Source: a virus. From it: 63,505 nucleotides of DNA. Position numbers and translations under genes: made by a program. Each line of letters begins with the position of its first letter. Within the stretch, counting starts at the first letter, position 1. Where the stretch lies: positions 1 to 63,505 of the IMG/VR virus record IMGVR_UViG_3300036791_000918. One strand, written 5' to 3'. Below, in pieces: positions 3,073-15,998 of this stretch. A model generated the notes under the pieces. That model saw only the letters and a list, made by a program, of their open reading frames with translations, did no database searches and was not told the origin of the DNA.

Positions 3073-3234
3073 TTACGAAAAGTCATCGGTAGATTGCTTA
3101 CGCCACTTCTTATGGCACCAATTCCAGAAAAGAAATGGTGTAGCGATTGGGAGCAGCATAGAGATTCCTATCCTGCCGAAGCCAGAATGGAGTAGGAAGA
3201 TTGCAAGAGCAATCCATAGCAGACCTACTATCAT
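3073..3234 (-). CDS. Small two-segment membrane protein, 53 aa
   Basis: Starting at the ATG at 3234, the protein has two hydrophobic stretches (about residues 2-15 and 20-38) and a basic C-terminus with WCHKKWRK. The start overlaps the stop of the VWA-metallopeptidase gene by one base (TGATG), indicating coupled translation. It may anchor or assist the MoxR/VWA module at the membrane, but that is inference. Confidence 0.6.
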   Translation of the reverse strand: MIVGLLWIALAIFLLHSGFGRIGISMLLPIATPFLFWNWCHKKWRKQSTDDFS

Positions 3235-4442
3235 CACTGCACCTCTACTCGCACGGTGCCGGCCCAGGGCGGACATGGTGCGTCTGTCGTGCATCCAATT
3301 ATGAGCGGGAACGGCGTCTCGACATCGGGCCATGGCGTGTAGCCGTCCGTCAGGAGCAAGACCACCTCCGGCTCGTACTGCTCCGCAAAGACCAGAGGTT
3401 TCCTCATGTCGGTGCCGCCGCCTCCTTTCGGATGCAGCACCACCTCGGCGCCGTCTTCGAACACGTCGATGTTCGAACAGTCCTTGTCGTCGGCCCAGAC
3501 TACCCGCACGGTCATCGGCTTGATGACGGTGACGATGTGATTCACCGCGACCGCGATGCGCTCGAACACAGCTTTGCTGAACATCGACCCGGAGCTATCC
3601 GCGACAATGGTCAGCTCGTCCATGCCGTTGCTCTTGCGCGACGGCAGGATCACCTCGCTGTGCCTCCTATTGCGTCGGCTCCAGTTCTCGTCCTCCGCAA
3701 TACAAGCTGTCATGTAGTCGATCAGTACCTGCTCCCATGGCACAGGGTCCTCGTAGCCGGCGCTGACGATCGCTTCCAGAGTCCCGGGCATAACTCCGTG
3801 CTGCTTGGCGATCGCGGTTGCGCGAGCAATCGCCTTGCTAATCTTGTGGTCAATCGCCGCGGCTTGCTCGGGAGTCGCTGCGGGCACCGGCCGCAGATCG
3901 CCGCCAAGCCCGCCTTGGGTTTGCTCGGGCTTCTCGCCCGACTTACCCTGACCCGGGCCTTGCTGACCCTGGCTTTGACCCTCACCCTTGCCCTGGCTCT
4001 GACCTTTCTTGCCGCCTTGCTTGCCAACTTCCTGCTGCCGCAGCGCATAGATTTGCTCCGCGGTCATGCCACGATATCGTTCCTCGATCAGAGCCCAGCG
4101 CCAGATGGCAAAGCCCAGGTCCTTGAGGATGATGTTGATGGCGTAATCGCAGCACTTGTTCCACTCCATAGGATCGCGGCTGCCACGGCGTAGACCATGC
4201 TTCAGGATGATGTGCATCAGCTCGTGAATGATCACGAACTTAGCGGTTGGCACATCCAGCCCTTCGATGAACTCCGGGTTGTAGCCAATGACCGTCATGT
4301 CGGTCCACGCCGTGTCACACGTCGGGTCCTCGATGAACGGGGTTTGTAAAAGCACCGATGCGAAGAACATCAGCGCCTTGACCTTGACGAGACTGGCGCG
4401 CGCCGTCTCGAAAGTGCTCAGTTGTTTTTGATATCGTGCCAT
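3234..4442 (-). CDS. VWA-domain protein with zincin metallopeptidase domain (DUF2201-like)
   Basis: 402 residues in three parts. The N-terminal domain carries HELMH at residues 73-77, the zinc-binding motif of DUF2201-type putative metallopeptidases. A Gly/Gln/Lys-rich linker spans about 140-180. A C-terminal VWA domain has a MIDAS motif DSSGSM (282-287), the GGGGTD segment near 345 and LLTDG near 367. Such proteins pair with MoxR-type AAA ATPases, and one is encoded at 5397-6479. The pair may act as a metal-dependent remodelling or proteolytic machine. Palindrome copy 2 lies 18 bp upstream of the start. Confidence 0.85.
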   Translation of the reverse strand: MARYQKQLSTFETARASLVKVKALMFFASVLLQTPFIEDPTCDTAWTDMTVIGYNPEFIEGLDVPTAKFVIIHELMHIILKHGLRRGSRDPMEWNKCCDYAINIILKDLGFAIWRWALIEERYRGMTAEQIYALRQQEVGKQGGKKGQSQGKGEGQSQGQQGPGQGKSGEKPEQTQGGLGGDLRPVPAATPEQAAAIDHKISKAIARATAIAKQHGVMPGTLEAIVSAGYEDPVPWEQVLIDYMTACIAEDENWSRRNRRHSEVILPSRKSNGMDELTIVADSSGSMFSKAVFERIAVAVNHIVTVIKPMTVRVVWADDKDCSNIDVFEDGAEVVLHPKGGGGTDMRKPLVFAEQYEPEVVLLLTDGYTPWPDVETPFPLIIGCTTDAPCPPWAGTVRVEVQ

Positions 4443-11736: not shown

Positions 11737-12153
11737 TTAGATGACAGGTGCATCAAAGGTCCGTTGGTACCACGGCTTGAACTTGAGCAGGGTCTTCGAG
11801 TCGAGCGCTTTCCAGTCGCCGTCGAAGCAGATCGCACGATCGTCGACGGTGAGGAACGCGGCGGGCTTCTCGTGGGTGAAGACGATGTCGCGCAGCAGCA
11901 TGTCTGCCTGCGGCGTAGTCAGATCGGTGCAGGCACGGACATGGCGCTCCAGCCACTCACGCATGGCCTTGATGCCTTCTAGCTCCTTGGAGCGTGACGA
12001 GTAGATGTTGACGTTGAAATGATAGAGCGCGCTGTAGAGCCACTTGAACGCGCCGGGCACCGGCGGATCAAGGATCACGGCCGCGCCCAGCCAGCCGCTG
12101 GTGTAGCTGTGGATCACGCCGTCGAAATCGACGCATAGGATCGGCTTTGACAC
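11737..12153 (-). CDS. HAD-superfamily hydrolase-like protein
   Basis: 138 residues. The N-terminal VDFDGVIHSY (D9, D11) is the HAD motif I with nucleophile and acid/base aspartates; YSSRSKE fits motif II and LTVDDRAICFDG fits motif IV. The size and the FDGVIHSY style match small phage HAD proteins possibly acting on nucleotides or polynucleotide ends. Substrate unknown. Confidence 0.75.
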   Translation of the reverse strand: MSKPILCVDFDGVIHSYTSGWLGAAVILDPPVPGAFKWLYSALYHFNVNIYSSRSKELEGIKAMREWLERHVRACTDLTTPQADMLLRDIVFTHEKPAAFLTVDDRAICFDGDWKALDSKTLLKFKPWYQRTFDAPVI

Positions 12154-12164
12154 TTGTGTACCTC

Positions 12165-12341
12165 CTATGACAGCAGCCCAGCTTCACGTGCGGCTCTATC
12201 CAACAGTTGAAGCTGGCGGACGGCTTGATAGATTTTCTCTTGGGTGCGCCGGTCCTCGACCAAACCGGCCAGCGCCACCAGCTCTAGACATAGATCGTGG
12301 GTATCTGTCAGCTTTGGCGGCGATGGCTTGCGCTTGCTCAT
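12165..12341 (-). CDS. Small helical protein, 58 aa
   Basis: MSKRKPSPPKLTDTHDLCLE then a helix-rich C-terminus (RRTQEKIYQAVRQLQLLDRAA). It fits between the Acb2-like gene (stop 12346) and the HAD gene (start 12153) with gaps of 4 and 11 bp. No family recognised. Confidence 0.6.
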   Translation of the reverse strand: MSKRKPSPPKLTDTHDLCLELVALAGLVEDRRTQEKIYQAVRQLQLLDRAAREAGLLS

Positions 12342-12345
12342 CCAG

Positions 12346-12642
12346 TCACTTGGTAATATTCTTGACCGCCCACATCACGGCCTCCTCGATCTTGGTCTGT
12401 GCGAGACTCAGCTCCCGGCTTTTACCCATTGCGTCGATCATCTGCCAAAACTCCAATCCTTTATCCTTGATCTGCTGCATCTGAGTCTTCTCAGCGTCAG
12501 TGAGCACGCGGTACTCGTGACGCATCACGTTGTTGACGACGCGCTCGTCAGAGGTCGAAGAAACCGTCTCGACCTTGTCGCCGATCCGGGTGCTGGCGCT
12601 GGCACTAGCGCTACTACCGATATTGACGTTGTGGGTGGTCAT
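12346..12642 (-). CDS. Acb2/Tad1-hairpin-like protein (candidate anti-CBASS cyclic-nucleotide sponge)
   Basis: 98 residues from the ATG at 12642. The C-terminal half, about 46-97, has two predicted helices ending in SRELSLAQTKIEEAVMWA (75-92). This is the hallmark of the Acb2 family, whose hexamers sequester cyclic di- and trinucleotide signals of CBASS immunity. The first 45 residues are a polar Ser/Thr-rich extension not needed for that fold. It overlaps the amidase stop (ATGA) and so is produced with it. The family call rests on motif memory, not a search. It could also be a structural relative with another ligand. Confidence 0.7.
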   Translation of the reverse strand: MTTHNVNIGSSASASASTRIGDKVETVSSTSDERVVNNVMRHEYRVLTDAEKTQMQQIKDKGLEFWQMIDAMGKSRELSLAQTKIEEAVMWAVKNITK

Positions 12643-13466
12643 GCGTGCTTGCCCTCCCGTGATTCGATTTTGACATACTGTGCATTGCACCAGCCGTAGA
12701 GCGCAACGGTTGGTCCGGCGCCCTGGCCGACTTGGAAGCGCAGCCACTTGGTCGAGCCGTTCATGGCCTCGCCGACAATGATCAGCTCATCGCCGTTCTC
12801 GGCTTCGCCGATAATCGGTGAAGACGATGATGAAGTGGCGCGGATGTTTAATATATCGTTGGCGGCAAGGTTGGCAACGACGCCGTGGCGCGGTGCCATA
12901 GGCTGCTGACCGTGGTCGCCGCCGTCGCCCATGACTTGCTGCACACAGGAAATGTAGGTGGGCTTGGACATGTTCTTGCCGGGACAGGCATGGTCGGTGT
13001 TGGGGTCCTCGTAGTGGAACTTGAGAAGCTCCGGGTTCCAGCCGAAGAACTCGCAGCACACGGCGCTCAGCTCGTGGCCCATGCGTTGTACGTCGGCGCC
13101 AAGACCTTCGGTCGCGCTCTCGGTAGCGTAGTCGCCTACATGCTCGAACCCCAGCATGGTGCCGTTCCAGCTGGGGCTGTGCACGCCCTTGACGTTGGGC
13201 GGCGTCATGCACCACCAGCTTTTCCCATCAATGAAAAAGTGTGGGCCGGCGCTCCAGCCCATCCCGTTCTCGTAGTAGTTCTGCAGGTTCACCATGCGCT
13301 CGGCCGGCGGGACGCTGTGCCACCATTGGTAAAGCGTAGGACTTGCCGTGTTGTGGACAACGAAGTTGGACGGGCGCCATGAACTGTAGCTCAGGCCGCG
13401 GATGTACGTGCGTAGGTCGTCGAGGTTCTTGAATTCAAGCGCCGGGGAATTTCCTTTCCAGGTCAT
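12639..13466 (-). CDS. N-acetylmuramoyl-L-alanine amidase with C-terminal SH3-like domain
   Basis: 275 residues. Amidase_2 fold with predicted zinc ligands H38 (VVHNTAS), H96 (GVHSPSW) or H159, and DHACPGK at 158-164. The C-terminal region from about 185 to 270 (NLAANDILNIRATSSSSSPIIGE...) looks like a bacterial SH3 wall-binding domain. AGGAGG precedes the start at 13466. It cleaves peptidoglycan for lysis. It lies in the early arm, while a second lysin (39877-40857) lies in the late arm. Confidence 0.88.
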   Translation of the reverse strand: MTWKGNSPALEFKNLDDLRTYIRGLSYSSWRPSNFVVHNTASPTLYQWWHSVPPAERMVNLQNYYENGMGWSAGPHFFIDGKSWWCMTPPNVKGVHSPSWNGTMLGFEHVGDYATESATEGLGADVQRMGHELSAVCCEFFGWNPELLKFHYEDPNTDHACPGKNMSKPTYISCVQQVMGDGGDHGQQPMAPRHGVVANLAANDILNIRATSSSSSPIIGEAENGDELIIVGEAMNGSTKWLRFQVGQGAGPTVALYGWCNAQYVKIESREGKHA

Positions 13467-13978: not shown

Positions 13979-13997
13979 GTGTTACATGATGTAACAC
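13979..13997. promoter_or_regulatory. 19-bp palindrome, copy 6 (centre TGA)
   Basis: GTGTTACA-TGA-TGTAACAC with perfect arms, 3 bp after the upstream gene stop at 14001 and 14 bp before the start at 13964, covering the space where a ribosome would load. Confidence 0.8.
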
Positions 13998-15070: not shown

Positions 15071-15418
15071 TGTGCCGTCTTGTGCCGGTGATCTGTATTC
15101 GCGTGCCGCAAAAAGCTCAATGATATCAACGGACGTGCCGTTTGTGCCGCTTGTGCCGTACAAAACAACACCCCCCCCTAATCTTGATTCTGCCACAATC
15201 TCTTATCATCCTATATATTATATTATATTTTATTTCAACGTAGTTAGTATAGATAGGTAGTGGGTATCAGAGGCACGCGCGCGCCCGACCACTTTGGAAG
15301 TGCAAAAAAAGGGGGGGGTATCGTTTTGGACAGCACAAGCGGCACAATTGGCACGTCCGTTGATATCATTAAGCTTTTTACGGCACGCGAATACAAAGCA
15401 ACGGCACAACACGGCACA
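15071..15418. repeat. 108-bp inverted repeat around an AT-rich centre
   Basis: The left arm 15071-15178 and the right arm 15311-15418 are the same length and match at 96 of 108 positions without gaps when one is reversed. Each arm contains repeated TTGTGCCG units, the segment TGATATCAACGGACGTGCC and ends inward with a run of eight C or G. The 132-bp centre includes a run of A/T near 15208-15240. Confidence 0.9.
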
Positions 15419-15487
15419 ACGCTGGTAATATGGTGTAGAAAAGTAGTCTGTACGTGATAGCGTGTATTACACGATGGTAGATTCTGC

Positions 15488-15663
15488 GGTATCTAAATAC
15501 AAGGAAGTTTACAGTGTACCATACGGTTACATGATTAACGTGTTACATCATGTAACACGTTATAGGATGTTAGAAAATGGTGGCACCTGTTAGTATGGTC
15601 TATAGGATTAGCGTTGTTATGTAATCGCATAGCACACTGTAAACTTACTTGTATTTAGATACC
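15488..15663. repeat. 30-bp inverted repeat flanking palindrome copy 8
   Basis: The arms 15488-15517 and 15634-15663 match at 29 of 30 positions. Between them lies palindrome copy 8 (15540-15558), off-centre. The arms contain GGTATCTAAATACAAG and TTTACAGTGT. Confidence 0.88.
15540..15558. promoter_or_regulatory. 19-bp palindrome, copy 8 (centre TCA)
   Basis: GTGTTACA-TCA-TGTAACAC with perfect arms, inside the 30-bp inverted repeat and not next to any gene. Confidence 0.8.
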
Positions 15664-15713
15664 GTCGAAATAGCTTAACGCATAGCGCATGCGATTAGGT
15701 GACTAGCCACAAA

Positions 15714-15916
15714 GCCCGCGAGCGCTGCAGCCCGCAGCCCGCAGCCCGCAGCCCGCGAGCGCTGCAGCCCGCAGCCCGCAGCCCGCGAGCGCTGCAGCCC
15801 GCAGCCCGCAGCCCGCAGCCCGCAGCCCGCGAGCGCTGCAGCCCGCGAGCGCTGCAGCCCGCAGCCCGCAGCCCGCGAGCGCTGCAGCCCGCAGCCCGCA
15901 GCCCGCGAGCGCTGCA
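15714..15916. repeat. Two-unit tandem array (7-bp and 16-bp units)
   Basis: Seven copies of GAGCGCTGCA start at 15720, 15757, 15787, 15831, 15847, 15877 and 15907. The distances are 37, 30, 44, 16, 30 and 30, each equal to 16 plus a multiple of 7. The array is thus a 16-bp unit (CGCGAGCGCTGCAGCC) separated by 0-4 copies of CGCAGCC. It ends beside a terminator. Confidence 0.92.
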
Positions 15917-15950
15917 AACAAAAAGGGCGCGCGCCTTGCGGCGCGCGCCC
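15917..15950 (-). terminator. Intrinsic terminator A (GCAA tetraloop), leftward
   Basis: GGGCGCGCGCC and its complement form an 11-bp GC stem with a GCAA loop on the minus strand, followed by UUUUUG. It is the second terminator downstream of the gene ending at 16014. Confidence 0.88.
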
Positions 15951-15966
15951 TTGGAGTCGAGGCAAT

Positions 15967-15998
15967 AAAAAACCCGGGCGCCTTGCGGCGCCCGGGCT
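15967..15998 (-). terminator. Intrinsic terminator B (GCAA tetraloop), leftward
   Basis: CCCGGGCGCC and GGCGCCCGGG pair with a GCAA loop on the minus strand and are followed by six U residues. It lies 16 bp after the stop of the gene at 16014-16670. Confidence 0.9.

Follow-up and report, generated by a model that had tools for sequence, protein, structure and literature searches.

Acb2 proteins are small phage sponges built from a short N-terminal helix and two long antiparallel helices, to be distinguished from Tad1, whose N-terminus forms an antiparallel beta-sheet domain (PMC12043709). In Vs.4, the Acb2 of phage T4 (7uq2), residues Y8 and K23 contact cGAMP and the Y8A substitution weakens binding (PMC10097602), and T68M lowers the affinity of T4 Acb2 (PMC12657230). 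Sponge activity can also be turned against the phage that carries it: Panoptes does so with Acb2 and favours variants of the sponge that no longer bind (PMC12657218). Structures are likewise available for the Acb2 of Pseudomonas phage PaP2 (p26; 8h2j, 8h2x, 8ixz), which has been solved with cGAMP, for Acb2 homolog 43 (9ptq, a protein of 76 aa with 6 chains), and for Tad1 (7uav, 8smd, 8kbe), whose C-terminal hairpin belongs to the same Pfam family, PF24729. Here we compare these systems with a gene found in a virus record of 63,505 bases, the whole of which we refer to as the window.

Results

The gene and its neighbours

The features discussed below are as follows.

12346..12642, minus strand: Acb2-like gene, 98 aa plus stop, the sole PF24729 match in the record (5.6e-20)
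12571..12642, minus strand: lineage-specific N-terminal extension, residues 1-24 (MTTHNVNIGSSASASASTRIGDKV), found in no relative, pLDDT ~50
12514..12570, minus strand: family-conserved N-terminal segment, residues 25-43 (ETVSSTSDERVVNNVMRHE), defined from an alignment of 63 sequences
12349..12513, minus strand: Acb2/Tad1 helical hairpin, residues 44-98, with helix 49-70, a short turn, helix 76-97, and Y44 and K59
12639..13466, minus strand: upstream gene, N-acetylmuramoyl-L-alanine amidase with an SH3 domain, a phage endolysin (PF01510 3.8e-6, PF08239 1.2e-7)
12165..12341, minus strand: 58-aa gene directly downstream of the Acb2-like gene, no family match
11737..12153, minus strand: phage protein (ILCVDFDGVIHSYTSGW; phrog_23773 3.9e-24, phrog_1238 2e-10)
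13979..13997, no strand: 19-bp palindrome GTGTTACATGATGTAACAC, 14 nt upstream of ATG 13964

The original prediction had placed an open frame at 12346-12642 and left its strand unstated. We confirm 98 codons on the minus strand, encoding MTTHNVNIGSSASASASTRIGDKVETVSSTSDERVVNNVMRHEYRVLTDAEKTQMQQIKDKGLEFWQMIDAMGKSRELSLAQTKIEEAVMWAVKNITK; frame 1 of the plus strand gives an unrelated translation over the same positions. The gene had also been described as fused to the amidase operon through ATGA. The overlap exists, with the ATG of the Acb2-like gene (12642-12640) sharing bases with the TGA stop of the amidase (12641-12639), but the two are separate overlapping frames and not a fusion. A GGGAGGG sequence just upstream of the ATG provides a good ribosome site. 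Between Met1 and residue 39 the frame holds no ATG, GTG or TTG. This lack of an alternative start, together with the good ribosome site, rules out a miscalled start, and annotation cannot simply have lengthened a shorter protein at its N-terminus.

Family membership and distribution

PF24729, the Acb2/Tad1 hairpin, matches residues 44-97 with E = 5.6e-20 and 71.7 bits against a curated cut-off of 27, which is far beyond chance. The same family was found in all 79 of 79 diverse members of the family alignment, while a search of 14 control genomes returned no match to it. The PADLOC defence library gave no match to the protein. IMG/VR holds at least 260 loci with relatives, and 52 more were found in GTDB genomes, mainly of Alphaproteobacteria. 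Members are mostly 72-82 aa long and reside in phages and prophages, again mainly of Alphaproteobacteria; the only named phages with a match are Sinorhizobium phage Aussie, a spring-water podovirus and 'Dunaliella viridis virus SI2'. The last of these (HQ332136.1) is recorded as an algal virus, yet it is classed as Caudoviricetes and carries an ERF protein besides the homolog, and its true host is probably bacterial.

In PF24729 as a whole, proteins with a longer N-terminus or with other additions are common, and the viral matches include members of 134, 142 and 195 aa. At two loci the Acb2-like hairpin runs in frame into a long C-terminal part, which contains a membrane-type segment and a further domain in one (L021) and an Ig-like region in the other (L055); both are possible domain fusions.

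Ligand residues and predicted fold

The relation to validated sponges emerges from profiles. A single-sequence phmmer search of the PDB matched no solved Acb2 and nothing else of relevance. In HHalign, a profile of 125 relatives reached a probability of 97.6 (E 3.7e-12) against the PaP2 Acb2 family and of 94.2 (E 1.1e-7) against the T4 Vs.4 family; each alignment starts at the pocket tyrosine and extends to the C-terminus. When the PDB was searched with a 63-sequence profile, the top nine matches were Acb2 homolog 43, which came out best (E 0.002), Vs.4 (7uq2), Acb2 (8h2j, 8ixz) and Tad1, each of them weak. Such E-values, and those of the Foldseek searches described below, are individually weak because the hairpin comprises only ~55 residues.

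In a joint alignment of ten sequences that included Vs.4 and PaP2 Acb2, the only invariant columns were Y44, K59, T83 and M90, which correspond to Y8, K23, T68 and M75 of Vs.4. All 67 aligned sequences carry Y44 and K59, the two residues that match the cGAMP contacts of Vs.4. Their equivalents in PaP2 Acb2, Y11 and K26, presumably contact the ligand as well. The hexamer-interface alanines of Vs.4 are also retained, with A66, A73 and A77 matching A81, A88 and A92. In contrast, H11 of Vs.4 is replaced by L47 and the second stacking aromatic, F82, by T97, while the basic R79 aligns with K94. PaP2 Acb2, the protein solved with cGAMP, likewise has Leu and Ala at the H11 and F82 positions. Two residues of the window protein are rare within its own family: Q82, where most members have K, and N95, where most have H.

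According to the original prediction, the C-terminal half ends in the Acb2 signature. It does contain SRELSLAQTKIEEAVMWAVKNITK, but EEAVMWA is not terminal, as VKNITK comes after it.

An AlphaFold (AF2) monomer model of the window protein gives a confident helical hairpin, with helices 49-70 and 76-97 in blocks of pLDDT 93-98, and leaves residues 1-40 at pLDDT ~50. The nearest phage has a relative of 76 residues, whose model shows the same hairpin preceded by a short low-confidence N-terminal helix. Vs.4 and Acb2 rank first in Foldseek for both models and account for the top 8 matches of the window protein; the relative's model superposes on Acb2 with a TM of 0.65 and an rmsd of 1.4-1.5 Å. The absolute E-values are poor because the fold is small. 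N-terminal beta strands of the Tad1 type were sought in both models and none was found, the N-terminus being only 43 residues long. Taken together, the Pfam match, the HHalign alignments to two validated Acb2 families, the conserved ligand residues and the fold search bear out the Acb2-like assignment of the original prediction, and the protein almost certainly belongs to the known group of Acb2 sponges.

The likenesses and differences vary with the sponge chosen for comparison. PaP2 Acb2 shares the short N-terminal helix, the two long helices and both pocket residues, and its relatives frequently have 74 aa and a hairpin that is likewise short; identity is ~25%, however, and the window protein lacks the QPxxF tail and carries VxSTSDxRTVNNxMRH before the tyrosine as well as 24 extra residues. 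T4 Vs.4 is the best Foldseek match and shares the invariant and interface positions listed above, whereas its hairpin is ~25 residues longer and it has no STSD segment. Acb2 homolog 43 has the same short-turn hairpin but a different N-terminus and low identity. The homolog of Sinorhizobium phage Aussie (WPJ67960.1) shows 58% identity over residues 22-97 and carries a similar conserved stretch ahead of the tyrosine, but it is 78 aa long, has no extension and lies among head-tail genes.

A conserved segment and a 24-residue extension

The original prediction counted 45 polar residues ahead of the hairpin and took them as an extension. Only residues 1-24 are in fact extra, since residues ~25-43 form part of the conserved family core. 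This segment is present in nearly all relatives, which start a few residues before the motif VxSTSDxRTVNNxMRH (residues 27-42 here), and in 63 aligned sequences S29, S31, D32, R34, N37, N38, M40, R41 and H42 are at least 90% conserved. Nothing equivalent exists in Vs.4 or PaP2 Acb2; in the relative's model the segment coincides with the low-confidence short helix.

Across 126 distinct homologs the obligatory N-terminus, counted from the closest possible start codon up to V27, is longest here: 26 residues precede V27, followed by 13 in the next homolog and 0-10 in the remainder. The view that it is unusual for the family thus holds within the subfamily (26 against 0-13 in 125 others), but half of the stretch originally counted is core, and additions are common in PF24729 at large. 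Residues 1-24 are of low complexity, with 8 of 24 being Ser or Thr, and a 6-nt quasi-repeat, AGYGCC, encodes SASASAS within them. We searched phages, related loci and the window for a source of the extension, as peptide and as DNA, and found none; the best hit was a chance match with E = 9. Judging from the model, residues 1-24 are probably disordered, and nothing about them points to a function.

Position of the gene in related phages

The position of the gene shifts between near phages. Where the amidase is 82% identical, the Acb2-like gene lies ~1.1 kb downstream of it and lacks the extension; where the amidase is 77% identical, the distance exceeds 2 kb; and in a phage whose amidase is 75% identical, the Acb2-like gene is absent. 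In the window it immediately follows the amidase and is located upstream of the gene (11737..12153) that in relatives sits between the two. Its neighbours also vary widely across loci. The varying neighbours, the shifted position and the absence from one relative fit an accessory counter-defence gene. A CD-NTase (SMODS) occurs in 12 of the 31 bacterial genomes that hold relatives, a figure that serves as context only, as it comes without a matched background rate; it indicates that a target exists in such hosts.

Discussion

We consider it likely that the gene encodes a phage Acb2-type sponge that sequesters the cyclic oligonucleotides of CBASS-type immunity, and that its 24-residue tail is neutral. 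By analogy with known members, the hairpins would assemble into an oligomer, presumably a hexamer, in which a cyclic di- or trinucleotide from a CBASS-type enzyme of the host would be bound by Y44 and K59 of neighbouring chains. With the nucleotide trapped, the immune effector would not be triggered. The first 24 residues are probably a recent and neutral addition, perhaps gained as the gene took up its place right after the amidase, and would most likely leave ligand and assembly unaltered. The original suggestion that the extension may change oligomer form or ligand finds no support, given that it is predicted to be disordered, has no homolog and is absent from the closest relatives.

The protein could instead be a sponge for the cADPR-type signals of Thoeris, as is Tad1, rather than for CBASS nucleotides. 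With its short turn and SREnxxAxTxxEEAxMW, the hairpin is similar to that of Tad1 (SSRENACALTHVEEALMW), and the Pfam domain is common to Tad1; however, no strand is predicted that could correspond to the beta-sheet domain of Tad1, and Vs.4 and Acb2 come out ahead of Tad1 in both fold searches, which makes this reading quite improbable. Even less probable, in our judgement, is a role in lysis, in which an oligomer made together with the amidase would affect lysis timing or regulate the endolysin and bind no nucleotide. Such a role would fit the ATGA overlap, and a few relatives also adjoin a lysozyme-like gene (cluster 6). Yet the neighbours of most relatives are unrelated, such as the head-tail genes in phage Aussie and recombination genes in the spring-water podovirus, the nearest relatives have the gene at least 1.1 kb from the amidase, and the conserved tyrosine and lysine are the very residues with which Vs.4 holds its ligand.

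The selection exerted by Panoptes makes it conceivable that the window protein is a decayed or escape form of Acb2, in which the extension, Q82 and N95 mark a loss of binding. All three are exceptional, the extension being unique and the two residues rare in the family. Nevertheless, the frame is intact, its start retains a good ribosome site, and the ligand and interface positions common to Vs.4 and Acb2 are kept, so that we regard decay as extremely improbable. A different modification of the sponge could come from the conserved segment itself: in the oligomer, residues 25-43 could fold over the pocket and confer a ligand range unlike that of known Acb2 proteins, with residues 1-24 as a further lineage-specific modifier. 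We think this rather unlikely. Still, the conserved STSD segment of this mainly alphaproteobacterial subfamily, missing from the validated Acb2 proteins, is a more interesting point than the tail, and its role in ligand choice is directly testable. If the function of a CBASS sponge is confirmed, Acb2-type sponges would be widespread in alphaproteobacterial phages, at no fewer than 260 viral and ~50 bacterial-genome loci, among which we found no characterised member.

Other features of the window

ATG 13964, the start codon behind the palindrome listed above, belongs to the gene that heads the run containing the amidase and the Acb2-like gene. The palindrome is one of ten near-perfect 19-bp sites of the form GTGTTACAY-N-RTGTAACAC in the window, where 0.08 would be expected, with starts at 1481, 4461, 6512, 7477, 10177, 13979, 15007, 15540, 16765 and 57081. 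They lie mostly 14-94 nt upstream of minus-strand gene starts, none falls in the structural region, and the palindrome is common to related phages; a phage regulator probably uses it as its operator. One phage that shares it (L380) has a different, diverged PF24729 protein instead (1498-1716 of that locus, minus strand; 1.8e-11), suggesting an exchange of sponge types. Directly behind one palindrome of the window, at 3234-4442 on the minus strand, lies a gene for a DUF2201 metallopeptidase/VWA-like protein (PF13203 1.8e-43). A repeat array of GCAGCCC / GCGAGCGCTGCAGCCC occupies 15718-15994 and is followed by two strong terminator-like hairpins. A 116-nt inverted repeat (15071-15186 and 15303-15418) is 87% complementary and is adjoined by a 51-nt inverted repeat (15482-15669).
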